DNA of 19,803 bases from Nitrospirota bacterium (GTDB lineage: Bacteria; Nitrospirota; Nitrospiria; Nitrospirales; UBA8639): positions 1-19,803 of the forward strand of contig JAOUNC010000006.1 in assembly GCA_029881175.1 (NCBI GenBank), read 5' to 3'. Positions 1 through 19,803 of the stretch are shown in pieces. Both the position numbers and the translations under genes were made by a program. The notes beneath the pieces were generated by a model. The model was given only the letters and a program-made list of their open reading frames with translations. It was not told where the DNA came from and searched no databases. Every line of letters starts with the position of its first letter. The stretch's first letter is position 1.

Positions 1-1
1 C

Positions 2-2049: not shown

Positions 2050-2155
2050 CCTCACTCGTCAATCATCAGCGAAACCAACAAGCTCGCACTTCAAGATGCT
2101 GGAGGGCGAAGGTCTATGATAAGGTCAGAATCTTGATCATGAATAGGGAGAGTGA

Positions 2156-2602: not shown

Positions 2603-2616
2603 TCTTTTCAAGATTA
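2600..2616 (+). other. Small hairpin overlapping the stop codon
   Basis: TAATCTT (2600-2606) and AAGATTA (2610-2616) are perfect 7-bp arms around a TTC loop, and the gene's TAA stop is the first arm's start. There is no following T-run, so it is at best a weak terminator or an mRNA-end stabiliser. Confidence 0.3.
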
Positions 2617-2961: not shown

Positions 2962-2984
2962 TATAATGAATTTTGTGTATAAAT
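2949..2984 (+). promoter_or_regulatory. Inverted repeat ATTTATAC/GTATAAAT upstream of the AAA+ gene
   Basis: ATTTATAC (2949-2956) and GTATAAAT (2977-2984) are exact 8-bp inverted arms, 20 bp apart. They lie just upstream of the putative -10 element of the ATPase gene, where an operator could sit. The region is very AT-rich, so chance symmetry is possible. Confidence 0.35.
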
Positions 2985-2994
2985 AGATATAAAT

Positions 2995-3003
2995 TGGTAT
3001 AAT
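2995..3003 (+). promoter_or_regulatory. Extended -10 promoter giving a probable leaderless transcript
   Basis: TGGTATAAT is a perfect extended -10 (TGn plus TATAAT). The hexamer ends 6 bases before the A of the ATG at 3010, so the usual start distance puts +1 on or next to the start codon. No Shine-Dalgarno sequence precedes the ATG. A -35 is poor (TTGTGT at 2973-2978, 19-bp spacer), as is common with extended -10 promoters. TATAA-type hexamers also lie at 2962, 2978 and 2988. Confidence 0.5.
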
Positions 3004-3009
3004 TCGGTC

Positions 3010-4191: not shown

Positions 4192-4452
4192 TAAGTGGAA
4201 TTATGGACTTTTGGATCGCCGCTACCCTCACCCATGTCTCCCTCTTCGCCCTCAACCTTGAATTCAAGGGCAGACAAGCTCCCCGAGTTTTCGCACCACT
4301 GGGGTCGGTGAACCGCGACTTCAATACTCAGTATCTTCAACAAGATCTTGATGATTCGCTTGTCCTTTGCGTTGATCTGACTGCGGCATGCCCTTGCCCT
4401 TTCCTGCCACGATTCCTGGAAATGCGTAAGCCAGATTCTGAACAATCCAAGC
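4192..4452. other. Gap between convergent genes
   Basis: These 261 bp separate the 3' ends of the ATPase and priA genes. A perfect 14-bp palindrome CCTTGAATTCAAGG lies at 4256-4269. I found no hairpin with a T-run. A + strand frame runs through it into priA, but it has no ribosome binding site and no family resemblance. Confidence 0.4.
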
Positions 4453-6765
4453 TTAATGAATGTCGATCGGATCGACGTTGATTTCACAGATGACGGGGTC
4501 TTTCGGAAATTGCTCCTTGAACGCTTGCTGAATTTTTCGAAGGGCCTGTTGCGTTCCTGGCAAATCTGCCGTTTTGATTAGGAAGAGCATGCGATTCTTT
4601 TTGGTGCTCCCCGATTTTTTTGAGGCCATCGGCCCCAAGACCATTGGCCATGCGAACATTCTTTTTCCTTCTGACAGTGAGGCTCCCATCAAACCACAGG
4701 CAGTCAACTGTTGCGCTAAAAAATCGACCACTCGTTGCACTCGACTCGCTTGCTCACCGGTGACCACCAACAGGATGGCATGCGTGGCAGGAGGGTAGCC
4801 TAAGGCTTCTCGCAGTTCTAATTCCTGGTCATAAAATAGGCGTGGGTCATGTTGGGCGATCGCTTGAAGCACGTGATGCTCCGGCATGCGGGTTTGCAGA
4901 ATGACCTGTCCAGGCTGTTGATCACCCTGCGCTAAGGCCACGGCACTCGAAAGGAGATGATAGGTACGCTCGGCGGAACGAAAATCAGGAATATGCAGAC
5001 CGAGATCAGCTTGAGGCAAGGCTATCAACGGGGCAGTCAATGGCGTGGGTTGGTGAAGCAAAAATTCGGTTCCAATCAGGATCTGGGTCTTTTTCTGTCG
5101 GAATTGTTCCAAGATCTGCATGGCTTCTTGTTCTGTCTTGACGTTATCACGGTCAAACCGAGACAAAGCACGTCCAGGAAATAGGCCTGCTATCTCTTCT
5201 TCCAATCGTTGCGTGCCCATTCCTGAAAATCGAAAGATCCTTCCTTGGCAGGCCGAACAGACTTCGGGAGCAGCCTGACTCTTGGCACACAACGGACACA
5301 CCAACCGAGCCGGACGTTGAAACAATTTGAAGGCCACTCCACAGTTTCCACACGTCGGAGCCTGGCCACAATCTCGACAAATCAGGGATCGGGAAAACCC
5401 TTTGCGATTCAGAAGAAGAATAACTTGTTGGCCCGCCTCCAACGTGCGCGCCATACCATCCTGTAACGCCAGTGACACCGGAGGACCAAAGGGCAAGGAC
5501 GCCATATCGACGATCTCTACCGAGGAAACATGGGGACCCGAGGATTCTGAGGGAAAGGTGATCTGCTCACGAAAGCGGGCATAGGTTTCTAATGACGGGC
5601 TCGTGGTGCCATAGACCACCAAGGCTCCTTCAACCTCTCCTCGCATCTGCGCCACCTCCCGTGCATGATAATAGGGAAGATGTTCATCTTTGTATGATGA
5701 GTCCTCTTCCTGTTCAACCCACACGAGACCGACGTTGGAAAGAGGCAGAAACAACGCCGAACGTGTTCCCACCACAATTGCCGCCTGCCCTTGTCGGATG
5801 CGTTCCCATCTGGCAGAACGGTCATATGACGAAAGATGGCCATGATACACCTCGACCTGATCCTTCCACATCTTTCGCAAATTTTCTGCTACCGTTTCCG
5901 CTTGATGAACCTCAGGCGTCAGCACCATCGCCTGTTGCCCTTGCTGGCAGATGACTTGAATCGTTTTCAGAAGAAGATTCTGTCGTAACGATTCGGCACT
6001 CACCACAGAAACTTCCTGAAACCCACCAAGCCTAACCCCACTTGAAATGGCTTGCCACAGGGGGGCCTCTCCATTCTCCAACGCCAGTTGTTCGACAGGA
6101 GCTTCGGCGACGTACCGAGCTTGTTGATCAAAAAGATCTAATAAATCTGGAGTCGATGGCTTTTCCTTTCCACGTCGTGCATGGCTCTGGCCAAGGGACT
6201 TGGAACGGGAAGGGACCGAGGTCCGCTCAACAACCCATCCTTTCTTTTTGACAGAGACCAGCGTGGCAGACGCATGCTTCATCGATTGCGTGAAGGAGGA
6301 ACGAAGCAACCCATTGGGGACACATTCCAATTTGCGAAGCACGGCCTTCACCTCTTCCGGGAGTGATCGATTCACAATGGCCGTACGCCCTTCCTCTGTG
6401 ATAAAGAGACGCTTGACCACCTTAACTGAATGGGGGGGCACAATGAGCCGCAAGCAGGCCGCCAACGGGGCAAGATAATAATCCGAAATTTTTTCTATGA
6501 GCTGGAAGAGGTTGCGGCCAAGATGAGCCGGTCCCCCCTCGGTTTCCACAGCCAGAATTTCGCGTAAGGAGGTGTAGCGGACCTGCGTGGAGGTCCCCAC
6601 TCCCGATTGCTGTTCGAACAGACTGACTACCAACCCTGACACCACCCCAGATCCTAACGGCACAGTAACCTGGGTTCCTATGTGGAGATGCGCGAGAAGG
6701 GGTGGAGGAACTTGATAGGTAAAGACCTGAAATCGCCGACCCGGCAAGACCACATCAGCCAGCAT
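4453..6765 (-). CDS. priA: PriA-type primosomal protein N' with degenerate helicase motifs
   Basis: The 770-residue length matches PriA, which recognises stalled forks and reloads the replisome. The N-terminal 3'-DNA-binding domain is clear (residues 1-110). Eight zinc-binding cysteines are intact (C463, C466, C472, C475, C490, C493, C503, C506), followed by 'GTQRLEEE' and the C-terminal domain ending 'INVDPIDIH'. The helicase motifs are not intact. The segment where GxTGSGKT is expected (about 243-258) reads 'GVRLGGFQEVSVVSAE' with no P-loop. DEEH is replaced by 'EQEEDSSYK' (351-359), SATPSLES by 'GTTSPSLET' (386-394), and the QxxGRAGR region by 'SSAVALAQG' (606-614). It should be unable to hydrolyse ATP. 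Actinobacterial PriA proteins are also annotated as lacking helicase activity, so this is a plausible structural fork-recognition factor rather than a pseudogene. The start is ATG 6765. Confidence 0.9.
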   Translation of the reverse strand: MLADVVLPGRRFQVFTYQVPPPLLAHLHIGTQVTVPLGSGVVSGLVVSLFEQQSGVGTSTQVRYTSLREILAVETEGGPAHLGRNLFQLIEKISDYYLAPLAACLRLIVPPHSVKVVKRLFITEEGRTAIVNRSLPEEVKAVLRKLECVPNGLLRSSFTQSMKHASATLVSVKKKGWVVERTSVPSRSKSLGQSHARRGKEKPSTPDLLDLFDQQARYVAEAPVEQLALENGEAPLWQAISSGVRLGGFQEVSVVSAESLRQNLLLKTIQVICQQGQQAMVLTPEVHQAETVAENLRKMWKDQVEVYHGHLSSYDRSARWERIRQGQAAIVVGTRSALFLPLSNVGLVWVEQEEDSSYKDEHLPYYHAREVAQMRGEVEGALVVYGTTSPSLETYARFREQITFPSESSGPHVSSVEIVDMASLPFGPPVSLALQDGMARTLEAGQQVILLLNRKGFSRSLICRDCGQAPTCGNCGVAFKLFQRPARLVCPLCAKSQAAPEVCSACQGRIFRFSGMGTQRLEEEIAGLFPGRALSRFDRDNVKTEQEAMQILEQFRQKKTQILIGTEFLLHQPTPLTAPLIALPQADLGLHIPDFRSAERTYHLLSSAVALAQGDQQPGQVILQTRMPEHHVLQAIAQHDPRLFYDQELELREALGYPPATHAILLVVTGEQASRVQRVVDFLAQQLTACGLMGASLSEGKRMFAWPMVLGPMASKKSGSTKKNRMLFLIKTADLPGTQQALRKIQQAFKEQFPKDPVICEINVDPIDIH

Positions 6766-6864
6766 GGGGAACCAACGCCTTCGTGGGGGAATATTTTCTC
6801 ACAACAACCTTTCTTTCTTTTCACCCAATGGACTTCTGAACAGTCAAGCACCCTCCTAGACAGA

Positions 6865-7029
6865 ATGCCATCTGAAGTGCCACACTTTTCTTATGAGTGC
6901 CCATTCACCTTTTGTGCCGATAGGCAACAGGTTTCACGTCCGCACATCCCTTGGCTGATCCTTTTTGATGGCATTTGCGGATGGTGTACCGATTGGGTGC
7001 GCTTTGTGATCAGAAAAGATGGTGAATAG
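6865..7029 (+). pseudogene. Truncated thiol-disulfide oxidoreductase DCC-family (DUF393) fragment
   Basis: Translation from ATG 6865 gives 54 residues ending in the DCC-family N-terminal signature: 'WLILFDGICGWCTDWVRFV', then 'IRKDGE' and a stop at 7027-7029. The family is usually about 110-150 residues, with the DGxCxxC site near the start and a 'FAPLQS'-like segment following. Here the protein ends about 27 residues after entering the domain, and I see no continuation in any + frame downstream. The frame runs upstream without a stop into priA sequence, so the start is not certain. It is most likely a remnant of a DCC gene whose 3' part was deleted; a functional short CxxC peptide is less likely. 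Confidence 0.6.
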
Positions 7030-7121
7030 ATGAGGGATTGGCCACATCTGTCGCTTGAGCTGAGAGACATATCAAGGAATCATCACCCCCAGCACACAGG
7101 TACCAGAATGCTCACAAACAT

Positions 7122-7126
7122 GGAGG
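7122..7126 (+). promoter_or_regulatory. Strong ribosome binding site of the small membrane protein
   Basis: GGAGG ends 7 bases before ATG 7134. This consensus site is the main evidence that the short gene is translated. Confidence 0.6.
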
Positions 7127-7133
7127 CAAGAAC

Positions 7134-7229
7134 ATGGGAGGATTGGAATTACTTGGATTATTAGCGATTGTCATCGGAATCATTGGAGTCATCGTGCTGC
7201 TGAAAAGCCGTCAAAAATCAGACCGGTAA
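7134..7229 (+). CDS. 31-residue single-pass membrane small protein
   Basis: The peptide starts 'MGGLELLGLLAIVIGIIGVI', continues 'VLLKSRQKSDR', and ends with TAA at 7227-7229. It has one long Ile/Val/Leu-rich transmembrane helix and a basic cytoplasmic-type tail, so by the positive-inside rule the N-terminus should face out. A perfect GGAGG site with 7-base spacing precedes the ATG. It lies between the DCC fragment and the convergent response-regulator gene, 28 bp from the latter's stop. I know no family. Such small proteins commonly associate with larger membrane complexes or sensor kinases; the nearby kinase is a possible but untested partner. Confidence 0.55.
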   Translation: MGGLELLGLLAIVIGIIGVIVLLKSRQKSDR

Positions 7230-7257
7230 CGTGTGGGCTCAGCTGCAGAAAGGGCTT

Positions 7258-8646
7258 TCACACATCAGATTGCTTTTTGAGGCGGCGGTCCAGAGCAAAT
7301 CGCGTAATTCCCAGGTGTTTAGCGGCCAGGCTTTTATTGAAATCCGAGACGCGCATCACCTCATCAATAAGCGTATTCTCAATATCCCCCAACGTGTGCT
7401 CGCCTAAACGCATTTCAATGCGCACCACCGGTTGATTCCCTTGCGTCACCACATTCACCGCCGAGTGCGGGACTTCCAGCACTTCCCTCGGAAGATCACC
7501 ACTCGCCAAACTCTGCCCCCGGCAAAAAATCACTGCCCGTTCAATAATATTTTGTAATTCCCGGATATTGCCCGGATACCCATAGCGTTCCAAGAACTGC
7601 TGCGCCTCGGGATCGATGGCCGTCACATCCTTGCCGAGATCTTTGCTATGCACAGCGAGGGTTTGCAAACACAGGGGAATGATATCTTCAATGCGTTTCC
7701 GCAAGGGTGGAAGATCCAGCGAGACGACATTCAATCGAAAAAAAAGATCTTCGCGAAAGATACCCTGAGCCACATCTTTCCGGAGATCACGATTGGTCGC
7801 CGCGATCAACCGGAAGTCCACATCAATATCTTGGCGACCTCCTAGACGTCTAAACGACCGTTCTTGAAGCACCCGAAGCAACTTGGCTTGCATCGTGGGA
7901 TTCAGATCGCCGATCTCATCGAGGAACAGCGTGCCACCTTCGGCCTGTTCACAGAGCCCAGGTTTTCGTTGATGGGCTCCGGTAAACGCACCCCGCTCAT
8001 AGCCAAACAACTCGCTTTCAAAAAGCTCTTGGGGAATAGCCGTACAATTCACCCCCACGAATGGGCCCTGTGCTCTGGGACCATTATGATGGAGCACACG
8101 TGCCACAAATTCCTTCCCCGTCCCGGTTTCCCCAAACAACAACACGGTGGTCTTCAGATTTTGGGCCATTTCCTGGATCTGTCCGACTAACTCCTTCATG
8201 CTGGGGCTGTTGGACACTAAACTCTGAAGAGCATACCGGCCCGGTCGATCTTGTGTTTCAAAGTCGATACGGCGACGAAGGGTCAAGTATTCCAATGCCC
8301 GATCCACCACGGGTTCGACCCCTGACAGATCCACACTTTTGATGAGGAAGTCATACGCGCCCAGCCGCATGGCCTCGACGGCATCCTCGACCGTGCCATA
8401 GGCGGTGAGTAAAATGACTAAGCTTTGTTGCGTTTTTGCGCGAACCTGCTTCAAGGTTTCAATCCCACTCATGCCCGTCATTTTCAAGTCCAGCAAAATG
8501 ATGTCGGGCAAATCATGGTCAAGAGCCACGAGCAACGCCTCACCCGAGTCAAAGCTTCGAACATCCTGATGGCGTTTCGCCAATCGTCGGCTAATCGCCT
8601 GGCGAACCACTTCATCGTCATCCGTCACAAAAATTGTTGCGCGCAT
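7258..8646 (-). CDS. NtrC-family sigma54-dependent response regulator
   Basis: The 462-residue protein has three domains. The receiver (1-120) has acidic residues at 9-11, phospho-acceptor D53, T81 and K103. The AAA+ domain (about 145-385) has Walker A GETGTGKE at 172-179, the sigma54-contact loop GAFTGA at 219-224, Walker B 'GGTLFLDEIG' at 237-246, N200 of the 'VNC' strand, and both arginine fingers R298 and R304. A Fis-type helix-turn-helix (about 425-460) reads 'NKSLAAKHLGITRFALDRRL'. All catalytic parts are present, so it should activate sigma54 RNA polymerase when phosphorylated. The residue after K103 is Ser instead of the usual Pro. The start follows the kinase stop by 3 bases, so the two form a translationally coupled operon. 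Its likely targets are the sigma54-type promoters at 14701, 16428 and 18776. Confidence 0.93.
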   Translation of the reverse strand: MRATIFVTDDDEVVRQAISRRLAKRHQDVRSFDSGEALLVALDHDLPDIILLDLKMTGMSGIETLKQVRAKTQQSLVILLTAYGTVEDAVEAMRLGAYDFLIKSVDLSGVEPVVDRALEYLTLRRRIDFETQDRPGRYALQSLVSNSPSMKELVGQIQEMAQNLKTTVLLFGETGTGKEFVARVLHHNGPRAQGPFVGVNCTAIPQELFESELFGYERGAFTGAHQRKPGLCEQAEGGTLFLDEIGDLNPTMQAKLLRVLQERSFRRLGGRQDIDVDFRLIAATNRDLRKDVAQGIFREDLFFRLNVVSLDLPPLRKRIEDIIPLCLQTLAVHSKDLGKDVTAIDPEAQQFLERYGYPGNIRELQNIIERAVIFCRGQSLASGDLPREVLEVPHSAVNVVTQGNQPVVRIEMRLGEHTLGDIENTLIDEVMRVSDFNKSLAAKHLGITRFALDRRLKKQSDV

Positions 8647-8649
8647 CTT

Positions 8650-10578
8650 TTACACCGTTGAAAGTTGAACCTGGCACGCACAAGGCAGCCAGATCGAAAT
8701 CGTCGTCCCAATAAATTGTTGACTCTCCACATGCATCTCCCCACCATGCGCATCCACAATATTACGACAGATCGCCAGACCCAGTCCTGTTCCACGAACC
8801 TTTCCCGTCGTAAAAAATGGTTCAAAAATTCTGGAGATCACATGAGGATCAATCCCTTTACCCGTATCCTCGACGGTTAATCGAAGACCTTGTTGATGCT
8901 CATAGAGTTCTTCTCGAATGGACAGATGCAGGGCAGCATTGTCGGGCATGGCTTCAATCGCATTCTGAAGAATGTTCAACACGACCTGCTTGAGTTGATC
9001 TCGATCGGCATGAAGCGCCCGCACATGCGTCGGCCAATGATGGTGGACCTGAATGGCTTTTTGTTGCACGGACGTTGATAAGACCTGTAAGGACTCCTCC
9101 AATAATTCTTCGAGTTGAAAGGCGACCGGGATGAGATCGCGTGGACGTGCATAGTCGACGATTTGATTCACAATGCGATCCAAGCGACGCGTTTCTTTCA
9201 AGATCGTTTGCAAATCGTCTCGACGAGAATCCCCTTCCGCAAAATCGTCTAACAGCAAGGACGCCGTAGACCCAATTCCTACTAAAGGGTTCCGTATTTC
9301 ATGAGCAATCCCTGCTGCCACTTGGCCTAAGGTCGCCAGCCGTTCCGATCGGCTCAATTGTGCACGCATCTGCTCTAAAGCCGTGATATCCACATTAAAG
9401 CCTTGATACACCAGAGTCTGACCTGATTCATCCTTGATTGGGACCGCACGACTCAAGACACGTCGCACCGCGCCATCCTTATGCAAAAATCGGAACACGC
9501 GCTCAAAGGATTCACTTTGAGCCTGAGCCTGACGAAAGGCTTCTTGGACAGACACTCGATCCTCAGGATGCAAGGCTTCCCACATCCCTTCCGGATCTAA
9601 GACCTCCTCGGGGTTTCGGCCAGCCAAAATCCAATTCTGGCGATTGCTGAAAATCACCCGATCTTGCTCAACCGTAAAAATCCCGATAGGCGCGTAATCG
9701 ACGATTCCTCGGTAGAGGGCCTCGGAAGAGGTGATGTCTTGATTAAGTGTCCGCAACTCCTGTTCTGAATGCTCAATCTGCTGAATATGCTGATGGATTT
9801 GGGTCCCCATCCTGTGCATCACCCGGGTTAATTCTCCGATTTCATCATGCCGATCCAAAACAGGGACCATCGGCATCCGTCCACCGGAAAAGTTTTCCAC
9901 GGTTTTCACCAACGTGGTTAATGGCCCGGTAATCGATCGGGCAATCAGTTGTAACGGCAGGAGCATCAACACCAGGGCGAACCCACCACCCCAAACCACC
10001 ACGCTCATCAGAACCGATCGATCGTGGGAGCTACTCGCTAACGCCTCCTGCAACTGCCCCACTTCCTGGCGATCGAATCGGGCCATTTCTTCGCGAATGG
10101 CCAACATGAGCAATCGGCCCTTTTCCGCTTCAACATACCGTAAGGCCTCTTCCGGATGCCCATCCTTCACCCGTTCAATTAAGAGATCTTTATCGGACAT
10201 CAGGTGTTCCACATTGGCTTGAACAGACTCAATAAGCTGTCGCTGCGATATATCGTCAGCAACCATCTGTCGAAGCACATTGCCTAATGTCAGCACCCGA
10301 TGTTTCGCCGCTTGATACGGCTGTAAAAATTGCGGTTGTTGAGTCAGCACATATCCACGAAACCCCGTTTCGAGATCCACAATTAATCGCATAAATTCTG
10401 AGGACGCACTTTGCGCATGATACACATCATTCAGGTGATCTTCGTCCAACGAAAAGGTCTGCACACTCTTATAGGTCACGAGGCTCAAGATCAAGACAGC
10501 CAGGATCGGGACACCAGAAACAAAGAGGAGCTTTTTGGCAATAGGAAGATTGAGGAAGAATTTATTGACCGTCATCAC
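8650..10578 (-). CDS. Membrane sensor histidine kinase (CHASE3-HAMP-PAS-HisKA-HATPase)
   Basis: The 642-residue protein has TM1 at about 18-37, a helical periplasmic CHASE3-like domain (about 44-180, with the typical 'VDLETGFRGYVLTQQ' start) and TM2 at about 189-212. Next are HAMP (213-268), PAS (about 285-400, 'YAPIGIF' and 'DITALE'), HisKA with H426 in 'GIAHEIRNPL', and an ATP-binding domain with N box 'NILQNAIEAM' (535-544), G1 DTGKG (571-575) and G2 GTGLGL (596-601). It has all residues needed for autophosphorylation and should phosphorylate D53 of the regulator encoded 3 bases downstream. CHASE3 ligands are generally unknown. The start is ATG 10578, or the adjacent ATG 10575; a GGGG at about 10581-10584 on the plus-strand complement is a weak ribosome site. 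Confidence 0.93.
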   Translation of the reverse strand: MMTVNKFFLNLPIAKKLLFVSGVPILAVLILSLVTYKSVQTFSLDEDHLNDVYHAQSASSEFMRLIVDLETGFRGYVLTQQPQFLQPYQAAKHRVLTLGNVLRQMVADDISQRQLIESVQANVEHLMSDKDLLIERVKDGHPEEALRYVEAEKGRLLMLAIREEMARFDRQEVGQLQEALASSSHDRSVLMSVVVWGGGFALVLMLLPLQLIARSITGPLTTLVKTVENFSGGRMPMVPVLDRHDEIGELTRVMHRMGTQIHQHIQQIEHSEQELRTLNQDITSSEALYRGIVDYAPIGIFTVEQDRVIFSNRQNWILAGRNPEEVLDPEGMWEALHPEDRVSVQEAFRQAQAQSESFERVFRFLHKDGAVRRVLSRAVPIKDESGQTLVYQGFNVDITALEQMRAQLSRSERLATLGQVAAGIAHEIRNPLVGIGSTASLLLDDFAEGDSRRDDLQTILKETRRLDRIVNQIVDYARPRDLIPVAFQLEELLEESLQVLSTSVQQKAIQVHHHWPTHVRALHADRDQLKQVVLNILQNAIEAMPDNAALHLSIREELYEHQQGLRLTVEDTGKGIDPHVISRIFEPFFTTGKVRGTGLGLAICRNIVDAHGGEMHVESQQFIGTTISIWLPCACQVQLSTV

Positions 10579-10737
10579 TGCCCCATCGAACGTGTAGAAA
10601 CTTCGTAGCCGATATGCCTAAACAAAAATTCGTCACCCTTAGCCTGTGCGGGCTGAAAGCCTTCGGAGGACATTTCCTTTCTGTCCACTCACTCATGACC
10701 AACCCCTTCTTCCTCCACTTCATCCGCATAACCTTTC

Positions 10738-10765
10738 ATGATAGGCCTTAGAATACCCGTTTCAA
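10738..10765 (-). promoter_or_regulatory. Putative sigma70 promoter of the kinase-regulator operon
   Basis: On the minus strand, TTGAAA (10765-10760) and TATCAT (10743-10738) are separated by 16 bp. This would start transcription near 10731 with a leader of about 150 bases. No sigma54-type site was found in front of this operon, fitting constitutive or housekeeping expression. Confidence 0.4.
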
Positions 10766-11072
10766 TCCTGCATTGTCCTCGTTTTCATCATCGCTCTTTC
10801 TGAAATCTCTCCTGATTGCTCGCCCCCCCCAATATCCGATTATCCCCATGTCCGAAGGGTCACAGTAACCATTACCTCCAAGAAACACTTTCACGCCAGG
10901 AGCGAGGGGGACAAAGGACCGTCGCAGATGATTTAAGGAAAAGAATCAGGCTTTCTGCTGATAGGCAAAATCCAAGAGAGGGATGGCCCAAATTCAAATA
11001 GAATATAAAAAAAATTGATCCAGCCCAAGCATTAAAGAAGGCCAGCGATTATGCATCCAGATCTCCTCATGC

Positions 11073-11093
11073 ACCCTGGCAAGAAACCAGGAT
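11073..11093 (-). terminator. Hairpin downstream of nhaB, no clear U-tract
   Basis: Read on the minus strand, ATCCTGG and CCAGGGT can pair (7 bp with one G-T) around a 7-base loop, just 11 bases past the nhaB stop. No T-run follows, so intrinsic termination is doubtful. Confidence 0.35.
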
Positions 11094-11103
11094 ACTTAAA
11101 CAG

Positions 11104-12765
11104 CTATTCAGGCGACAACGGATTGTGTTGAATCAAACCATGATCAATAGCCATCGCAGCGTCGGCTTGAGGAACCGTGATCCCATGAACCGGATATTGT
11201 TGGACGACGTCAGGCACATGATGGGTCAACAGTCCTTGTGCATAGTAAGATTGCGTCACCGGTTGCAACAGCATATACACGGCCAAGAAGCCGGTGAGGG
11301 TCATGGTGACCGTATAGGGGATGGCCATCCAGACCATCCGGCCATACGAAAGACGAATCACGGGAGCCAAAGCGGACGTCAACAGAAAGAGAAAGGCCGC
11401 CTGCCCATTGGGAGTCGCGACACTGGGAATATTGGTGCCCGTGTTAATGGCGACCGCCAGGAGATCAAATTGATCACGAGTAATCACTCCCTGATGAAAG
11501 GCCCGCAGGACCTGTTCAATATAGATCGTCGCGACAAAGACATTGTCGCTGATAGATGACAAGATGCCGTTGGCAATAAAAAACATGCCAATTTGATGAT
11601 CCCCATCCATGGCCAAAACATAATGGATAATGCCTCCAAAGAGTTGTTGCTCCTGGATCACCGCGACTACTGAAAAAAACACCACCAAGAGCGCCGTAAA
11701 CGGCAAGGCCTCTTTGAATGCCTCCCCAAGTTGATGCTCCTCGATAATGCCATTCAAAGCGGTCACTCCCACAATGACGGATAATCCAATGATACCCACT
11801 TCCGCCAAATGAAAGGCCAGGGCGAGAATTAACCAGATCATCGCCAGCCCCTGAACAATCAAACGGGCTTGAAACCGATGATCCATCTTGCTAGAGGTCT
11901 CTTGGTCAAACCGCCAAAGAATGTCCCTGACGGCGTGGGGAAGACTGAATCCATACCCAAACCATCGGAATCGTTCGACCAGGGCACAGGTCAGTAACCC
12001 CATAATCAACACCGGGATGGTCACAGGAGACATGCGGATCAAGAATTCAATAAAATTCCAATCCGCCTTCTCTCCGATCAACAGATTTTGGGGCTCTCCG
12101 ACTAAGGTGCAGACACCGCCCAGAGCAGTCCCAACCGCGCCATGCATGAGGAGGTTCCTTAAAAACCCCCGAAACTCCTCTAAATCAGAGCGATGGAGGG
12201 TGCCAACTTCATCGTCCACCGTATGATCATGATCATCCGGAACCCCTTTTCCGGAAGCCACACGGTGATACACTTTAAAAAACCCTACCGCTACCGCGAT
12301 GATGACGGCCGTCACCGTCAACGCATCCAGAAACGCCGACAGAAACGCCCCCATGAAGGAAAAAAAGAGCCCCAACCAAATTTTTGACCGGACGCCCAGC
12401 AAAATCTTATTAAATACAAACAGCAACAGGTCTTTCATGAAGTAGATCCCGGCCACCATAAAAATCAGGAGGAGGATCACCTGAAAATTGTTCAACGCCT
12501 CATGGTAAACCGTTGCGGGTTTCGCCATCCCAATGAGCACGGCTTCAAGGGCCAACAACCCACCTGGTTGCAGAGGATAACTTTTTAACGCCATGGCCAG
12601 GGTAAAAATAAATTCAAGAACAAGGCACCACCCTGTCACAAATGGGCCGACGGTATACAACAAACAGGGATTGAGAATGAGGAAGGCGAGAATCGCTCCC
12701 TTATACCACCTGGGGGCATGGTCGAGGAAATTTTGTTCAAATGCACGAAGAAAAGATAATGCCAT
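11104..12765 (-). CDS. nhaB: Na+/H+ antiporter NhaB
   Basis: The protein is close along its length to NhaB (E. coli about 513 residues) and exports Na+ in exchange for H+ across the inner membrane. Diagnostic segments include '[17 protein letters not shown]', '[18 protein letters not shown]', '[18 protein letters not shown]', '[18 protein letters not shown]', '[19 protein letters not shown]', '[17 protein letters not shown]', '[19 protein letters not shown]' and '[15 protein letters not shown]'. I chose ATG 12765 (553 residues) rather than TTG 12801 because a GTGGAG site lies about 10 bases upstream and because alignment with known NhaB begins there. The C-terminus is about 40 residues longer than in E. 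coli and hydrophilic. The gene follows the SulP gene after 56 bp in the same orientation, so it is probably in its operon, where it could restore the Na+ gradient used for bicarbonate import. Confidence 0.93.
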
Positions 12766-12821
12766 ATTTTGAAATCTCCACAAGAAATGGTTCGTGATCA
12801 AGCAGGCATCATAAATATTTT

Positions 12822-14621
12822 TTACGGTATCGCCTGAACTGGTTCACTCTGAGATTGAGGATTGGCCTCTGCTGCCTTCTTTTCTACGATCTGCATGGCA
12901 ATATCCAAGGCTGCATTAAAGTGTTCGCAGATATAATCCGCCTCCAGTCTGGAAAGTTCATTCAAATCGGCAAGAACCTGACGGGTCCTGGGGGTCATAC
13001 CAGCCGTCAACACGGCCACCCCGCGAGAATTGGCTGCTTCAATTAAATCGCCCAAGGCGTAGGCACCCGACAAATCCAACTCATCCAGCCATTTACACCG
13101 AATGATGAGCACATCTTTGCCCTCAAGATGTTCAACCGTTTCATTCAGCCAATCGATCGCCCCAAAAAACAATGGTCCATGGGGACGAACGATGATAATC
13201 CGATCTCGAACAATATGCTCAAAGCGGCCGCTCACCTCTCCCATATTGGCCCCATTTTGGCTGATCTTACGAGCATACTCCCTGGCAAAGGCAAAAATGA
13301 GGTCCTCTTCTTCTTGTTTCACATCTTCATCCCGTTGACTGAGTTGCGCTTTATACTGATCCGACTGGTCTTTTACAAAACGGAAAAATGCCACAGCAAG
13401 TCCCATGGCCATGGCAGACAACAAGTTCCAAAACACCGTCATGACCACCACTAACCCAAATACCATCAAATCAGAAGTGGGCAGTCTTCGAACCACAGGG
13501 AGCACCCGCATATCCAGAATGTCATACCCGGCCTTCAGAAGAATGCCGGCCAAGGCGGAAAGAGGGATCGAGGCGGCCAGAGTTCCAAGGCCGAGAATGA
13601 ATGAAAGCAGGACAAGACCCATCGTGATCGATGCCAAACGGGTACGGGCTCCGCTCTGGATATTGACGACACAGGGCATGGTATTAGTGGCTCCACCCAA
13701 CCCCCCGACCAATCCTGAAAATAAATTTGCCGACCCTTGGGCGACCAATTCCCGGTCGCTGTTATGATGTGTGCCGGTCATATTATCTACGATGAGACAG
13801 GTGAGTAGGCTATCGAATATACAGAGTCCGGCCAGGGCAGCAGCCGGCACAAACGCTTGCTGAAGAAGGTCAAGATTTGGCAGATATAACTCCGGGAAAC
13901 CGGTTGGAACATCTCCGATTTTGGGAATATCTAAACCCAGTAATGTGGTAGACGCTGTCCCAACAAACAACCCGATCAAGGGTCCTGGCAACCAGGTGAC
14001 CGGTGAAATTTTTGGCCACATCACGACAATCACTAACGTGAGGATCCCAATTCCAATGGCTGGCAAGGATGTATGCATGATGGTTGAGGGCAATTCCGTA
14101 ATGGCAGACGTAATACTCTTGGCACCAGGGAGGCCCAGAAATGGGTTGAGCTGAAGCAGCATGTACAAGAAGCCCAGTCCGGTCATAAATCCTGATATGA
14201 CTGAATAGGGAGTGAACTTAATAAACTGCCCAAGCTTCAACAATCCCAGAACGATCAAAATAAACCCGGCTAAGGCGATGGTGGTAAAAATGAAGACGAG
14301 ATTAGGTGAACCATCAGGCAATTGATGGGTCTGAGCGATATTAAGAATTTGGATAGTCATCGGCCCCGTCGGTCCGCCCACCGACCAGGCTGACCCACTT
14401 AACGGTCCTGCAACAAGACCGGCCGCCACAGCCGACCACAGCCCAGCAATGGCCCCCAACCCAGATGCCACACCAAAGGCCAAAGCCATGGGCAGCACGA
14501 CCATCGCCACCGTGATCCCCGCCAATACGTCTCCTCGCACATGGTTGCCCAACCCCTTAAGATTTTCCTTGAAATTAAAATCTTTCAAATATCCACTAAT
14601 GTTCGCCATCACTTGCTCCAT
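12822..14621 (-). CDS. SulP/SLC26 transporter with STAS domain, BicA-like (probable Na+-dependent bicarbonate importer)
   Basis: The 599-residue inner-membrane protein has a membrane domain (about 25-415), an acidic linker and a C-terminal STAS domain (about 472-580). It resembles cyanobacterial BicA more than sulfate carriers: '[20 protein letters not shown]' (43-62), 'GPTGPMTI' (83-90), '[14 protein letters not shown]' (137-150), '[10 protein letters not shown]' (241-250), '[19 protein letters not shown]' (286-304) and '[12 protein letters not shown]' (318-329). From memory, the Na+ site of BicA uses an Asp, a Thr four residues later, and a Thr in the 'GATM'-like turn; the equivalents here appear to be D270, T274 and T314. 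GGAGGG (14634-14629) lies 7 bases before ATG 14621, which settles the start. A sigma54-type promoter is about 80 bp upstream and nhaB is 56 bp downstream. The family is secure; bicarbonate as substrate is inferred. Confidence 0.9.
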
Positions 14622-14700
14622 TACTATTCCCTCCGCCTCGTTCGTTCTCGTTTCTCAAGCAGCCAATGAAATTAGTCAAAATTCCCCAATCGGGTACATC

Positions 14701-14717
14701 CGCAAATCACATGCCAA
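14701..14717 (-). promoter_or_regulatory. Sigma54-type -24/-12 promoter of the SulP-nhaB operon
   Basis: The minus strand reads TTGGCATGTGATTTGCG. Against TGGCACGN4TTGC it matches TGGCA, G at position 7, and TTGC, with the required 10 bases between GG and GC; only C6 (T) differs, plus the base after TTGC. Transcription would begin near 14690, giving a leader of about 70 bases to the strong SulP ribosome site. Confidence 0.6.
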
Positions 14718-14832
14718 TAACCAAAAGGACTGGCTTCGCAAACAATCAGGGCCTTTTCTTGTTAAATGGCCAAATATTCCTTCGCGAGATCTTATGAAGC
14801 TCTCAGCCTTAGTCTTCCCCAAGGACCCTTCT

Positions 14833-14846
14833 GTGCGAATTCGTAC
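14833..14846. promoter_or_regulatory. Candidate enhancer dyad GTGC-N6-GTAC upstream of the SulP promoter
   Basis: GTGCGAATTCGTAC is a near-perfect palindrome centred about 124 bp upstream of the -24 element. Its layout matches GTGC-N6-GCAC at 16683-16696 and 18667-18680. It could bind the Fis-type domain of the sigma54 regulator. Confidence 0.4.
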
Positions 14847-14967
14847 GGTGTGCCCTGAGCGAAATTAAAAGGTTGTCAGGAATGGGTGCCAACCATCGAT
14901 CATTCCCCTTTGAAATATTTTAAGAAATGGAAAATAAAAGAACTGACTGAAAGGGAGGATTGCAAAA

Positions 14968-16356
14968 CTAGAAGGTGAGCGTGGCCATCGTATACACATA
15001 ATTAACATCGGCCGTACCCGGGCTTTGTGGGACACGATTAAAGTAAGAACCTTTGAAAAATCTGGCAAATCCCAACTCAAATGACGTATGTCGGAAATAG
15101 CCTTCCTGAGGAGACCAATTCAGCGACGTATCGAATAAATTTCCCAGGAACGTCCCCGCTCGACCCGTCGTGTCCTGCAAGCCGCTGCCCACAAAAGGGC
15201 CACGGCCATCCGCCAACCAAAAAGTCCGGTGAGACACCATTAATTCAACAGTAGGATAAGGCTTAAGAGTTGAGCGAAATCCAACAGGGGAAAGAATATT
15301 TGATGGGAAAATAACTCCCAAAATTCCGCTTGGTCCGTATTCAGCCCGACGCTTTGCGAACAAGAAATCAAAATTCTTTTTCGGATTGGGATCACCCGAT
15401 GAATAGTCAAACAGGTAGACAAACCGAAGTGGCCAATCTGTACTAAAACTATAGCCCATCTCTCCGTGATGACGATGCGCAAAGTGACTCGTATGATCGA
15501 CCGTTCCAACTTGATAGATCGATTCTATCTCATAATCCAATTGCTCTTGAGCAGGCTGGGCAAACACTCGAAATCCTACGGTGGAAAGATCCCGCTTTTG
15601 AAGATTATTCCCCTCATTCAGTTGAAAAACATACAACTCCCCATTAGCCCAGGGAACATGGCGGCTGGAAATCGCCGCACCCGAAAAATAGGAACTAGGG
15701 GTATTCCAATCCGGGCTGACCGTATGTCGTTGAACAGGTCGCGTGACAAAGGCCCGAAGTCCCCACTCATGGGTTTTGTCCGATCCCATGGTCAATTGCA
15801 CACCATCAAATGTTGGAGTAAAGCTTCCAAACCGATGTCACGCCACGAGACGCCCTTTTCCAAAATCCATGATCAAACGCCCGACCTCAAATTTACCAGA
15901 ACTCCCCGTTCCCAAAAAGTTTTGAGACACCAGATCAAGACGGAGTTGAAAAATATCCAGATGATCCACAAAAATTGGTTGGTGTTCCTGTCCCCTATCA
16001 GCCACTGGGGCACGAAAATCTGCTAATTCCAGTGTGAATCGGATAGGGTCCCAGATATCCTTGATTCCAAACAAAATCCTAGTCCGTTGAGCGACCATCT
16101 GATCACTTCCTGCTGTCCCTTTCGTAAAACTGTGACTAAAGGTTTCATAGCGGGTTCGATGTTCAACCCCCAAATCCATCCATTTCGGCGTCATAGCAGA
16201 AAGTGAATTGGGCTGTTGTAAAATGATTTTCAAACGATCAAAATCACTCGGGAATTCTTTGGAGGCATCGCCAGCACCAAATGTACTTGTTGCCCATGAA
16301 CAGCCTCCAAGAATCATGAGGATCGTTATACGCATAATTCGAAAGGTTTTCATCAT
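14968..16356 (-). pseudogene. Outer-membrane porin of the alginate-export family, interrupted by one in-frame TGA
   Basis: The two halves lie in the same frame, split only by a TGA (plus-strand 15838-15840). The N-terminal part begins 'MMKTFRIMRITILMILGGCS', a signal sequence with a possible lipobox, then 'GVEHRTRYETFSHSF', 'RTRILFGIKD' and 'GRLIMDFGKGRLVA'. The family pattern 'GRQ..s.GD.RLig..dW.n.gr.FDG' continues straight through the stop as 'HRFGSFTPTFDGVQL' with no length change. The C-terminal half has alternating beta strands and ends 'TMATLTF', with a terminal aromatic residue as in outer-membrane barrels. Restored length is about 462 residues. CGA to TGA is the simplest lesion. The start is ATG 16356, or 16353; TTG 16359 is also in frame. 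A sigma54-type promoter precedes it. The solute is unknown; passage of inorganic anions is speculative. A sequencing error cannot be excluded. Confidence 0.75.
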
Positions 16357-16427
16357 CAATTCTTCAGAAAATGTGGTAGGCGGTTTTCCCTCTTACGCTT
16401 TTCAGAACGAGTCAATCTGCCTCCAAC

Positions 16428-16443
16428 GCAAAACTAATACCAA
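16428..16443 (-). promoter_or_regulatory. Sigma54-type promoter of the porin gene
   Basis: The minus strand reads TTGGTATTAGTTTTGC: TGG, A at position 5 and TTGC match, with 10 bases between GG and GC. The -24 block has three mismatches (C4, C6 and G7). The start would be near 16417, about 60 bases before the ATG. It shares TGGTA(C/T)T and TTTTGC with the site at 18776. Confidence 0.5.
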
Positions 16444-16681
16444 ATAATTCATAAGGAACGATTAGATTCGGTTTGAAATTTTGCAGCTTGGGAATCAAAT
16501 CCTAGAGGGCGGGCTTTTCATCTCCTCATGATTACCTTGACGGTAAAAAATGAAGATCTTTGTTACGCTCTTTTCTTTTTCCATCATGTGACGCGTTTGT
16601 TTATTTTAGAATTTCCTCTTTTTTTCTTTACTCATAACTTTCAAACACATCACAAAAGGTGCCAATTCACACGTCTCCCCC

Positions 16682-16697
16682 TGTGCACCATCGCACA
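16682..16697. promoter_or_regulatory. Candidate enhancer dyad TGTGC-N6-GCACA
   Basis: TGTGCACCATCGCACA has perfect 5-bp arms. It lies about 245 bp upstream of the porin -24 element and about 390 bp upstream of the second regulator. It has the same GTGC-N6-GCAC core as 18667-18680. Confidence 0.45.
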
Positions 16698-17086
16698 CTG
16701 ATGAACTAGTGCAGCAAGTTGGAGCCACATCCTTGTCAAAAATTAGCAAGAAAACTAGCCACCGCACTCGCTGAACACCAATAAGAGACTGCGAGTATGG
16801 ACTTTGCATTTCAATTGCTTCACAGTTGCTCACAGTGATTGTTCCTGTGACAGGTTTCATTGGGGGTGGAGATTCCCTAAAATCGTTCTTATCTGTCCAG
16901 CGCCCCTTGGGCAAATGGCGGTTTTGAGGGATCTCTCCTCGCCGTGGATGGAAGGCATTTAAAATTTTCATCACCATTTATGTGCAGGTAGCTCCAAAGT
17001 CGCCAACATAAACATGGCTGCATGTGACCGACAGGGAGTACTTCGACTTCTTTATTCATTCAAGCACAAGCAACGAGGTTTGTTAT

Positions 17087-18439
17087 ATGCGTGCAACGAT
17101 TTATGTAACAGACGATGACCAAAGTGTGTGTTCGGCGTTAAGTCGCCGATTGGCAAAAAAAGGGCACCTCGTGAGGAGCTTCCATTCTGGAGAATCACTC
17201 CTTGAGGCGGTGGGTTATGAAATTCCCGATCTACTATTTCTGGATCTCAAAATGCCGGAAATGGATGGACTTGAAACGTTACGACGAGTGCGGCAATCGA
17301 TTCCGACAACCCTGGTCGTCATGTTGACGGCCTATGGCGGCGTCGAAGATGCCGTGGAAGCTATGCGTCTGGGTGCCTACGATTTCTTAATCAAATCAGT
17401 CGATTTTTCATCAGTGGAACCGGCACTCAATCGAGCGCTCAATTTCCTCACACTAAGACGCCGGGTTGAGTACACAGCCTCCGAAAAACAACGTGAATTT
17501 TCCTGGAACCACGTCATCGCCATCAGTCCATCGATGACGGCTGTTCTTGAGAGATTCAAAAGGATGGCGGCCGAAGATACGGCGTTAGCGTTTCTCCACG
17601 GGGAGGTGGGAACTGGAAAAGAGTTCTTAGCTCGAGTTCTCCATTACAATAGCCAACAACATCTTGGCCCATTTGTGACGGTCATCTGTACGAATCAAAA
17701 CGTACCACGACTTGAATCACAACTCTTTGGCTATGAACGAGGTGCCTTTAGCGGAGCCAATCAAGCCATGCCGGGAATGTTTGAACATGCAGATGGGGGC
17801 ACCCTTTTTATTGATGAAATCGAACATCTGCCCATACCTGTTCAAGAAAGGTTAGCTGAGGCCATTCGCACCCGTTCATTTTGTCGAACAGGAGGGAAAG
17901 ACTGTCTCCCCATCAATACTCGTCTCATGCTAGCCAGTGCTATCCCTCCAGACCACCCAGGGAATGAAAGCACCTTTCATCCAGCATTACTTTTACTTCT
18001 TCAAAATCATCAGATTCGCATTCCGCCTCTTCGGGAGCGAAAAGAAGACATCCTTCCCTTGGCACTTAAAACCATTCAGACGTATGGAGAAGAAATCGGC
18101 CGACCCAAGATCGATATTGATGCGTCCGTAACCCTGCTGTTGGAAAATTACGAATTCCCCGGTAATATTCGGGAATTAGAAGCCCTCATTAAAAAAGCCG
18201 TGCTCGGCTCTCAGGGACCAATTCTTTCTTCCATGAATTTTCAACTAGAGAATGCTCACGACGTGAGGGAAGACACCTCTCAGAACAAGGTTCACATACA
18301 GTTTGAACTTGGCCGGCATTCCCTCTCTGAAATCCAAAGCATAGTGATTCATGAAGTTCTGCGTTTAGCCAAGCAGGACAAAGAAGAAGCGGCCCGCTAT
18401 CTCCATATTTCTCCCCAAATGCTCGAGGAACAGATGTGA
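17087..18439 (+). CDS. Degenerate NtrC-type response regulator, paralogue of the upstream regulator
   Basis: I chose ATG 17087 (450 residues, 'MRATIYVTDDDQ') over the upstream in-frame start at 17024, because GAGG lies about 8 bases before it and because it then aligns without gaps with the regulator at 7258-8646 over most of its length. The receiver is intact (D9-D11, D53, T81, K103, again followed by Ser). The AAA+ domain keeps Walker A GEVGTGKE (172-179) and Walker B 'GGTLFIDEIE' (237-246). However, GAFTGA is GAFSGA (219-224), N200 is Ile, and the two arginine fingers are H298 and L304. The C-terminal helix-turn-helix stops at 'HISPQMLEEQM', without the basic end of the recognition helix. 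It is therefore predicted to be unable to drive sigma54 open complexes and perhaps unable to bind DNA normally. It may be a decaying copy, or a phospho-sink or hetero-oligomer modulator of its paralogue. Confidence 0.85.
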   Translation: MRATIYVTDDDQSVCSALSRRLAKKGHLVRSFHSGESLLEAVGYEIPDLLFLDLKMPEMDGLETLRRVRQSIPTTLVVMLTAYGGVEDAVEAMRLGAYDFLIKSVDFSSVEPALNRALNFLTLRRRVEYTASEKQREFSWNHVIAISPSMTAVLERFKRMAAEDTALAFLHGEVGTGKEFLARVLHYNSQQHLGPFVTVICTNQNVPRLESQLFGYERGAFSGANQAMPGMFEHADGGTLFIDEIEHLPIPVQERLAEAIRTRSFCRTGGKDCLPINTRLMLASAIPPDHPGNESTFHPALLLLLQNHQIRIPPLRERKEDILPLALKTIQTYGEEIGRPKIDIDASVTLLLENYEFPGNIRELEALIKKAVLGSQGPILSSMNFQLENAHDVREDTSQNKVHIQFELGRHSLSEIQSIVIHEVLRLAKQDKEEAARYLHISPQMLEEQM

Positions 18440-18666
18440 ATACATGAAGATGGGCCGCTCGAGAACAAGTCTTCCTTGGGAAGTTAACTCGTGCGCTTGA
18501 TTTTACTCTTGCTTATACGCTCCTTCTTCCCAGGCTTAGGGGTTACCTGTACCTGCGCAACCATAGTATTTTCCGGGAATCCTTCTTCTTCTCTTCGTCC
18601 CTTCAGGAATGAAGTCAAGAGAGAGTATTGGTCTCGGGATTAAGCCATTTTCACACATTCCGCGTA

Positions 18667-18680
18667 GTGCGATCTTGCAC
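18667..18680. promoter_or_regulatory. Candidate enhancer dyad GTGC-N6-GCAC upstream of the carbonic anhydrase
   Basis: GTGCGATCTTGCAC, with A and T flanks that extend the arms to AGTGC/GCACT, is centred about 103 bp before the -24 element. This is a typical distance for an NtrC-family binding site. Confidence 0.45.
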
Positions 18681-18775
18681 TTTACCCCCACCGTGTCTCC
18701 ATCTTTTGAAAACGAAATACCAAAAATCCCATGCCATTCTTTCTAATTTCCTTAGAGAATGGAGTTGATCGTGCG

Positions 18776-18791
18776 TGGTACTACTTTTGCT
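18776..18791 (+). promoter_or_regulatory. Sigma54-type promoter of the carbonic anhydrase gene
   Basis: TGGTACTACTTTTGCT matches TGGCACGN4TTGCW except C4 and G7, with exactly 10 bases between GG and GC. The predicted start near 18802 leaves about 50 bases to ATG 18852, which favours that start over TTG 18807. Confidence 0.6.
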
Positions 18792-18851
18792 GGTTTCTTT
18801 GATTAGTTGAAAACCCAAATATCCACAATCAACGAAACGGATAAGAATTCC

Positions 18852-19669
18852 ATGGCTAGAGTTTCATACCCAGACCCCATTCTTTCTTCAACCGGACTAC
18901 ACCTTGAATCCTCCCATTTTGACGAAACGCTGATGCGGCATATCCCCGGTTTTCGGCCTAGTCAAAAGTTTATAGACTATTCCTTAGGCATCTTAAAGCC
19001 ATTTGGATTTCAACCAGACAATTCGATGGCCTGCGCAAGTGTGTGCCGCGACGAACTCACCCGCCCGTTTATTAATACGATTAATGAAGCCTGGGGGAGT
19101 TTATTTAACTTCTCCGGCTTGGCAGGCATGCCGTAACTCGGTGTCACGGGTTTTAAGGCCGCTCATCACCATGCGCCCGACACGGATGGAATCGAACGAT
19201 ATATCTATTTTGCCTTTCCCCATATCGCAATCGATGAACAGGGGATACCCGGAAACTGTTGGGGTCAAACTGTTGGCGTCCCGGACGTCAAAATATGTCT
19301 CACGCCTGTGGAGCACTGTTAACGATTCAACAGGATTTAGCCCATGGGTCAGTTGGGCTAGAGCTGAACCAGGATGACCTCGAGCAAAGCCTCTTAAAAC
19401 AACGCCTGTTTAGGAAGCTTCGGTATGGTGACATGCCGGATTTGGTCACACTCACCAAAATGGCCCATACTGTCATCCGAGAAGATCTCGAACGGATGAT
19501 CCAATTGACAGTCGATAGTGCCTCATTCCCGTATGCCGTCTTTACGGGAATTCAAATTCATGGTCCGAACAATCAAACCTGGATCTGGATGGATACGCCA
19601 TATGTGATGGACCAAGGTATTCGAGAAACCTTAGATCCCATGAATCCGGTTTTCCAAGGTGCCTGGTAA
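18852..19669 (+). pseudogene. LCIB/LCIC-type carbonic anhydrase, broken by a nonsense codon and a 14-bp tandem duplication
   Basis: LCIB-family proteins resemble beta-carbonic anhydrases and interconvert CO2 and bicarbonate. Recognisable blocks are 'FGFQPDNSMACASVCRDEL', 'NEAWGSLFNFSGLAGM', 'YFAFPHIAID', 'MSHACGALLTI', 'DDLEQSLLKQRL', 'YGDMPDLVTLTKMAH', 'EDLERMIQLTVD' and 'YAVFTGIQIHGPN'. The family's Cys-His-Cys zinc ligands appear present (Cys codon 19044, His codon 19221, Cys codon 19307). Two lesions occur: TAA at 19134-19136, after 'LAGMP', where the text continues in the same frame as 'LGVTGFKAAHHHAP'; and a frame change from frame 3 to frame 2 at 19253-19280. Deleting one copy of the 14-bp duplication restores 'PGNCWRPGRQNMSHACGAL' exactly. 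The C-terminus ends 'NPVFQGAW'. The in-frame TTG at 18807 is an alternative start. With both lesions, full-length enzyme cannot be made from this copy. Confidence 0.85.
19253..19280 (+). repeat. 14-bp tandem duplication causing the frameshift
   Basis: AAACTGTTGGGGTC (19253-19266) is followed immediately by AAACTGTTGGCGTC (19267-19280), with 13 of 14 bases identical. Fourteen is not a multiple of three. Removing either unit rejoins the two carbonic anhydrase frames at a family-conserved 'RPGR' position. Confidence 0.85.
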
Positions 19670-19803
19670 GTCATTGAGGTCATATTGATAATGGACCGTG
19701 GAATACTTCATCCCGTCCTCTTCATTACCCTCCTAAAATTGAGCAGTAAAACCACTCATTTCCACATATCAAAATTCTCTAAAATGAGCGATTACGCACG
19801 TAT
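19670..19803. other. Right edge, no supported gene
   Basis: An ATG at 19691 opens a frame to the window end ('MDRGILHPVLFITLLKLSSK' start), but it has no clear ribosome site. CTCATTT and AAATGAG form 7-bp inverted arms near 19754-19787. Nothing firmer can be said at the edge. Confidence 0.25.

Follow-up and report, generated by a model that had tools for sequence, protein, structure and literature searches.

Conserved sigma54 promoters with a shared upstream element in a probable inorganic-carbon uptake cluster of Nitrospirales

Introduction

To our knowledge, little is known of how inorganic-carbon uptake is regulated in autotrophs outside the cyanobacteria. A 19,803-nt stretch of DNA from a Nitrospirota bacterium (order Nitrospirales; assembly GCA_029881175.1, contig JAOUNC010000006.1, positions 1 to 19,803), referred to here as the window, raises the question of whether genes for a SulP transporter, an NhaB Na+/H+ antiporter, a porin and an LCIB-type carbonic anhydrase are controlled together by sigma54, as had been proposed in a preliminary description made from the sequence alone, and, if so, by which activator and with what function. 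The relevant genes lie, from left to right, in the order PriA(-), RR1(-), kinase(-), NhaB(-), SulP(-), porin(-), RR2(+) and LCIB(+), RR1 and RR2 being two response regulators of the sigma54-activator type. The window is the entire contig C478 of an assembly of 3.07 Mb in 509 contigs that is 82% complete (G, C and L denote our genome, contig and locus handles). The sigma54 gene rpoN is encoded in the same genome (G000:C502:4310-4792, PF04552, 198.8 bits) and is present in 34 of the 36 genomes examined. From the promoters, their conservation and a newly recognised upstream element, the cluster is very probably a single sigma54 regulon.

Results

The -24/-12 sites of the window

Three correctly oriented sites of the form GG-N10-GC with TTGC at -12, as previously described, are present ahead of SulP, the porin and LCIB:

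14702..14716, minus strand: sigma54 -24/-12 promoter of SulP-nhaB, TGGCATGTGATTTGC (GG-N10-GC; conserved in SulP orthologues)
16428..16442, minus strand: sigma54 -24/-12 promoter of the porin, TGGTATTAGTTTTGC (GG-N10-GC; conserved in porin orthologues)
18776..18790, plus strand: sigma54 -24/-12 promoter of the LCIB gene, TGGTACTACTTTTGC (GG-N10-GC; conserved in LCIB orthologues)

The window contains no exact match to TGGYAN6TTGC other than these three. The distance from the site to the start codon, earlier given as 50-70 bases, agrees with the 69 nt counted from the -12 C of the porin site (to the TTG at 16359; slightly longer to the ATG at 16353) and with the 62 nt at LCIB, but is too short for SulP, where 81 nt were counted. 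The sequence TGGTAYT...TTTTGC, which had been pointed out as common to the porin and LCIB sites, is shared by them in the window but not in relatives, where the LCIB site is mostly TGGCACT and the porin site mostly retains TGGTA; because this identity is lost, TGGTAYT was rejected as a signature of the regulon.

The simplest alternative, that AT-rich intergenic DNA has produced the three sites by chance, draws on the modest excess of sites over chance within this single window. Three sites scored at least 13.4, where 60 shuffled windows averaged 0.8; when one mismatch was tolerated there were 13 matches against 8.7 expected, 20 of 200 shuffles also reaching 13. The preliminary description had itself raised equally good matches elsewhere as an objection to its sites; genome-wide, TGGYAYN5TTGC gave 33 matches against 16 for the reversed control, with three of the 33 inside the window and the remaining 30 examined for overlapping and downstream open reading frames only. 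This alternative was refuted by the conservation of the sites in orthologous loci described below, where their orientation, sequence and near-constant position are maintained, a common element lies upstream and shuffled sequences reach the threshold in about 0.3% of cases, and we consider it extremely improbable.

Conservation in orthologous loci

In the counts for orthologous upstream regions, a site was called when it scored at least 13.4 and lay no more than 150 nt from the start codon. In a first survey of 15 loci with a relative of the window SulP, 13 of which belong to metagenome-assembled genomes of Nitrospirota/Nitrospirales with 73-92% identity, a site was found upstream of SulP in 12, the misses being L011 and two loci from other phyla. 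The latter two (L014 and L015, without a SulP site) were excluded from all later counts, which cover loci of the same genus and family together with record L010. The comparison with related genomes that had been suggested as a check on the three sites bore them out: a site was present in 16 of 18 SulP upstream regions (excluding G031 and G024, where the match started beyond residue 5), in 7 of 10 porin upstream regions (excluding G002 and G011, where the upstream sequence was too short) and in 8 of 11 LCIB upstream regions. The porin misses were G006, with a score of 12.7, and G003 and G013, with no site, while the other three LCIB sites score 13.4 only after rounding. Shuffled upstream regions reached the threshold in 10 of 3600 (SulP), 6 of 2000 (porin) and 5 of 2200 (LCIB) cases.

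Within the intergenic alignments, mean identity in the box columns compared with the remaining columns was 100% against 63% for SulP (16 sequences, the site-less G033 and G023 being excluded), 81% against 55% for the porin (10 sequences) and 98% against 59% for LCIB (11 sequences). The sequences compared are akin, so that these counts do not represent independent events. Retention of the sites in orthologous loci makes their reality convincing despite the weak statistics of the single window, and on this decisive comparative evidence all three predicted -24/-12 sites are confirmed as real.

The same criteria applied to the other genes of the cluster as controls yielded a site in 1 of 14 kinase, 0 of 15 RR1, 0 of 12 RR2 and 0 of 14 NhaB upstream regions, and a sigma54 promoter directly ahead of any of these genes was rejected on that count (1 of 55). 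A good sigma54-like match about 275 nt upstream of RR2, on the RR2 strand, was noted in L067, L082 and L085 and was not seen in the window.

An upstream element common to the three promoters

All three promoters share one upstream element, newly recognised here, in which CGCACA-like repeats are spaced by 24 bp:

14832..14864, minus strand: upstream element of SulP-nhaB, TTTCGCTCAGGGCACACCGTACGAATTCGCACA (top match of model R1 in its own genome, E 4.3e-5)
16665..16697, plus strand: upstream element between porin and RR2, ATTCACACGTCTCCCCCTGTGCACCATCGCACA (model R1, E 0.26, third and last match in its own genome)
18649..18681, plus strand: upstream element of the LCIB gene, TTTCACACATTCCGCGTAGTGCGATCTTGCACT (found with the SulP-trained matrix; model R1, E 0.002)

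The element upstream of SulP, in which an inverted GTRCGA half-site stands between the two CGCACA-type half-sites, is nearly identical across 16 loci in its strict form. A matrix trained on SulP elements alone recovered an element upstream of LCIB in 9 of 11 loci, 199-236 nt from the start codon (not in G033 or G003), and, as counterparts of the window copy, an element in the interval from porin to RR2 in 9 of 10 (G033 being the exception). At either position 0-2 of 100 shuffles equalled each match, and 0 of 100 equalled the LCIB element of the window. In 7 of 10 upstream regions the porin/RR2 element is 320-336 nt away from the porin start; some of the best matches fall on the other strand of this element, which is partly palindromic. 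The spacing from the element to -24 is 145-149 in 14 of the 15 SulP rows listed, 123-127 in the six LCIB rows listed and 125 in the five rows listed for a fourth promoter, which is described below.

Model R1 was built from 23 elements of the four promoters and run on eight genomes; the porin/RR2 element of the window was outside its training set, while orthologous copies of it were inside. In the genome of the window the model returned three matches at E up to 1, one at each of the three promoters; in G018 no match other than those at the four cluster promoters had an E below 0.8. Only weak matches were obtained in G033. The exact element pattern was found 6 times against 1 for the reversed control in G018, 5 against 2 in both G010 and G013, and 1 against 1 in G016; in the own genome the count was 0 against 0, the pattern being too strict for the window copies.

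Two further occurrences were noted. In G033, which belongs to another genus, additional element/sigma54 pairs lie downstream of SulP (L071, 12292-12669), one of them preceding a 119-residue open reading frame. In G005, which carries RR1 and no RR2, a similar element (L217, C192:914-942) is found about 500 nt ahead of a SulP paralogue with 43% identity, with a weak site (13.1) in between; it may be a chance occurrence, since the looser pattern counts given below are near those of the controls.

RR1, its kinase and the degenerate paralogue RR2

Three genes of the window encode components of two-component sigma54 control:

7258..8646, minus strand: RR1, canonical NtrC-type sigma54 activator (receiver, AAA+ domain with GAFTGA, HTH_8)
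8650..10578, minus strand: sensor kinase in tandem with RR1 (CHASE3-HAMP-PAS-HisKA-HATPase)
17087..18439, plus strand: RR2, response regulator with a degenerate sigma54-activator ATPase (domain matches, motif alignment)

The intact sigma54 regulator reported next door together with its kinase is thus recognisable as RR1. Its receiver, Walker A and B motifs, GAFTGA loop, arginine fingers and Fis-type helix-turn-helix are canonical in all 14 aligned copies, with HTH_8 recognised in the window copy, and the kinase gene lies in tandem with it.

The preliminary description had omitted RR2, encoded between the porin and LCIB. In all 11 aligned RR2 copies other residues take the place of both arginine-finger arginines (FREDLYYRL of a solved NtrC aligns to FHPALLLLL of RR2), the GAFTGA loop is GAFSGA in ten of the 11, a conservative change, and GAFDGA in G006, and the Walker B glutamate is missing in three copies. 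No HTH_8 match was obtained at E 0.001 for the window copy or that of G016. The receiver aspartate and an open frame are retained, the G033 copy stopping early at 392 residues. Median ratios of nonsynonymous to synonymous substitution rates (24 pairs each, synonymous rate below 1.5) are 0.10 for RR2 and 0.05 for RR1; the RR2 value is indicative of purifying selection and therefore of maintenance. RR2 is an RR1 paralogue lacking arginine fingers, for which the role of an ordinary activator is unlikely.

RR1 is the likely binder of the shared element. It could instead be a bystander from an older kinase-RR1 module, with the element bound by RR2 or by another activator encoded elsewhere. RR2 is restricted to cluster genomes (11 of 59, all carrying a SulP orthologue; the G015 copy is a contig-edge fragment) and sits between two targets, the own genome has 17 PF00158 matches, and G008, which has RR1 and lacks the cluster, gave no model R1 match below E 0.78. 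Set against these points are the loss of the arginine fingers and of a recognised HTH_8 in RR2, as well as the finding that in G024, which lies outside the genus, element and site precede SulP in a genome with no RR2 match, which favours RR1 as the binder. On this balance we regard the alternative as unlikely and retain RR1 as the candidate activator.

In G006 two RR1 copies were observed (on C75 and C253), one in the cluster with a kinase remnant and the other elsewhere with a full kinase.

The target genes and the function of the cluster

The four genes under the three promoters are as follows:

12822..14621, minus strand: SulP transporter, 599 aa (Pfam Sulfate_transp and STAS; closest solved structure 6ki1)
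11104..12801, minus strand: NhaB Na+/H+ antiporter, downstream of SulP in the same orientation (Pfam NhaB, 802 bits)
14968..16359, minus strand: porin, outer-membrane barrel of the Alginate_exp family, with an in-frame TGA at 15838-15840 (family match, interruption of the open reading frame)
18852..19669, plus strand: LCIB-type carbonic anhydrase gene, interrupted by a TAA at 19134-19136 and a 14-bp duplication at 19253-19266/19267-19280

Among solved structures SulP is closest to 6ki1 (261 bits; next 114 bits), which is labelled 'Low affinity sulfate transporter' in its record and which we take to be BicA. The intact LCIB orthologue of G016 matches Pfam LCIB_C_CA (173.8 bits), with LCIC (5b5x) and LCIB (5k5w) as best matches in the PDB. 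The porin has no relative in the PDB at E 0.001. A BicA-like SulP beside NhaB has been reported for N. marina in the accessible passages of PMC8115632, and NhaB and BicA are discussed for the haloalkaline growth of Ca. N. alkalitolerans in those of PMC7784846. By this homology, inorganic-carbon uptake is on balance the probable function of the cluster.

A different reading would keep the regulon and change its signal and purpose: it would respond to redox or nitric oxide (NO) state, alkaline pH or Na+, with SulP and NhaB serving ion and pH homeostasis. Of 59 genomes, 37 have the kinase, and of 14 further kinase loci retrieved, 11 have a Tll0287-like c-heme gene next to it (L165, L166, L167, L171-L178). 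The Tll0287-like family is described as NO- or redox-related (PMC12889525, in the part available), and its partnership with the kinase hints at redox or NO input. NhaB is found near kinase-RR1 in G033 and G030 with no SulP in the stretch, and in G014 beside a SulP piece of 49% identity; the link of NhaB and BicA to haloalkaline growth (PMC7784846, same passages) would fit such a role. Against this reading, LCIB_C_CA is a carbonic-anhydrase family whose gene carries both the shared element and the promoter, SulP is closest to 6ki1 among solved proteins, and redox regulation would be compatible with a carbon-uptake output. We consider this reading rather unlikely and keep carbon uptake as the working assignment.

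The proposed circuit and its weaknesses

The best overall explanation, and in our judgement a fairly probable one, is a sigma54 carbon-uptake regulon under RR1 and its kinase that is modulated by RR2. The kinase (8650-10578) would phosphorylate RR1 (7258-8646), which would bind the CGCACA-type element at each target, loop to the sigma54 RNA polymerase (E-sigma54) at the -24/-12 sites and spend ATP on opening the promoters of SulP-nhaB, the porin, LCIB and a fourth operon beyond the window, predicted from relatives to encode a pair of very small hydrophobic peptides together with a Tll0287-like heme protein and another SulP. The porin would pass HCO3- across the outer membrane, the BicA-like SulP would import it with Na+, NhaB would return Na+ and LCIB would interconvert HCO3- and CO2. 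RR2 would most likely modulate RR1, through mixed oligomers or competition for phosphoryl groups. Should RR2 act on RR1 in this manner, it would represent a naturally selected case of a sigma54 activator turned modulator.

Besides the modest excess of sites in the window, a number of observations weigh against this explanation. Concerning the sites and the element, the SulP-adjacent site is absent in G033 and G023 among the 18 upstream regions, and the porin/RR2 element lies at 227 nt in G013 and 162 nt in G003, both of which are without a porin site. The element to -24 spacing at SulP is 160 in G006 and about 355 nt in L010. For each genome model R1 scored 150 candidates only, and several of the genomes it was run on had supplied training elements; a stray match outranks the porin/RR2 element in G010 (E 0.25 against 0.31) and a partial LCIB match in G003, and the fourth element of G016 is absent among the matches listed. 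With a looser element pattern the counts against the reversed control were 2 and 4 in G008, 5 and 6 in G007, 9 and 3 in G005 and 19 and 14 in G024. Concerning the regulators, RR1 and the kinase are present in G005, G007 and G008, which lack the cluster, so that the pair seems older than the cluster; its occurrence outside the cluster, often beside a Tll0287-like gene, indicates that it was probably recruited and is not dedicated.

The targets themselves provide further points on the same side. The Na+-site residues of BicA are presumably D258, T262, G300, A301 and T302, to which D, T, T, N and T of SulP align, so that two of the five differ. In this assembly both the porin and LCIB are interrupted, the latter both by a stop codon in frame and by a 14-bp tandem duplication (13 of 14 identical) that changes the reading frame, and the full circuit may therefore not operate in this strain; the interruptions may be true decay or assembly error. 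Targets are also repeatedly broken in relatives. By tblastn, interruptions were found in 5 of 17 porin entries (G017 counts as two pieces; a contig edge truncates five more, which show no stop), in 4 of 11 LCIB entries and in 5 of 14 NhaB entries, with a further NhaB remnant in G013. The entries for RR1 (15), RR2 (12) and SulP (20) are stop-free, some being cut by contig edges. A C-terminal frameshift of SulP occurs in G027 only. Of the kinase, 48 of 642 residues are left in the G006 cluster, and one stop is present in G002.

Taken with the sites, the element, rpoN and the activator with its kinase, these points leave the structure of the regulon as first proposed correct, as one co-regulated sigma54 unit, and better founded than had been claimed. 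The carbon label, which is based on homology, is probable, the assignment of the activator likely, and completeness in this strain doubtful.

Comparison with known systems

As in NtrC-family two-component sigma54 control, the cluster combines a receiver-AAA+-Fis activator with a kinase, rpoN and an element mostly 120-160 bp before the sites; it differs in its SulP, NhaB, porin and LCIB targets and in the conserved paralogue without arginine fingers. The BicA-NhaB pairs of marine and alkalitolerant Nitrospira, for which Na+-driven HCO3- uptake is proposed in the accessible passages of PMC8115632 and PMC7784846, likewise place a BicA-like SulP near a Na+/H+ antiporter, while LCIB, RR2 and the shared element are features of the present cluster not found in those passages. 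The term 'sigma-54' does not occur in the text of PMC8115632, nor 'sigma' in that of PMC7784846. In Thioalkalivibrio thiocyanoxidans a sigma54 activator is encoded near the RuBisCO/carboxysome operon, and sigma54 was suggested as a possible common regulatory actor, RuBisCO included (PMC5744179, in the part available); there the genes are those of the Calvin cycle and carboxysome, with no promoter sites given in that part, whereas here SulP and LCIB carry conserved sites. The LCIB protein resembles the LCIB/LCIC family in its LCIB_C_CA domain and PDB matches, but is bacterial, lies behind a sigma54-type promoter and is interrupted. Sigma54 control of such a cluster was not described in the titles and abstract openings listed for the open-licence literature searched. 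In Nitrospirales the locus would offer a circuit open to testing: its promoters and upstream element are defined, RR1 is the candidate activator, and RR2 is a candidate for a dead co-regulator.

A fourth promoter and two micropeptides

The right end of the window holds the beginning of a further copy of the element:

19786..19803, plus strand: start of the fourth upstream element, GAGCGATTACGCACGTAT, truncated by the contig end (first 15 bases identical to the fourth upstream element region of G009)

Relatives have an element and a site of the form TGGCATTTRCCTTGC; behind these come two tiny hydrophobic open reading frames, adjacent to each other, and then a Tll0287-like c-heme gene and another SulP gene. 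The two micropeptides have 18 and 24 residues, MEGFTLILLITWAVLSRF and MEHVPLIAILTIIVIALMNRLGLD (for example G018:C1:1293924-1293961, with equivalents in L179-L194). Of 59 genomes, 15 contain the first, in 16 copies altogether; among the 15 copies with upstream sequence, 14 lie 15-65 nt behind a site scoring at least 13.4, ten of them also with the element, and the copy on G017:C141 has upstream sequence and no site. In the genome of the window, the micropeptide gene lies on a separate contig, C384, with its start 64 nt from the contig end; because the end of the window falls within the fourth element, the two contigs are probably separated by an assembly gap. The second SulP was rejected as a direct fourth target, since the site precedes the two micropeptides and the Tll0287-like gene.

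The 18-residue peptide could be a small partner of SulP transporters. The fullest form of the proposal, a local four-promoter sigma54 carbon regulon with one element, an ATPase-dead RR2 as modulator and sigma54-driven peptides of 18 and 24 residues as SulP partners, is put forward tentatively, as somewhat less likely than not. In G023 and G031 the first micropeptide directly precedes SulP.

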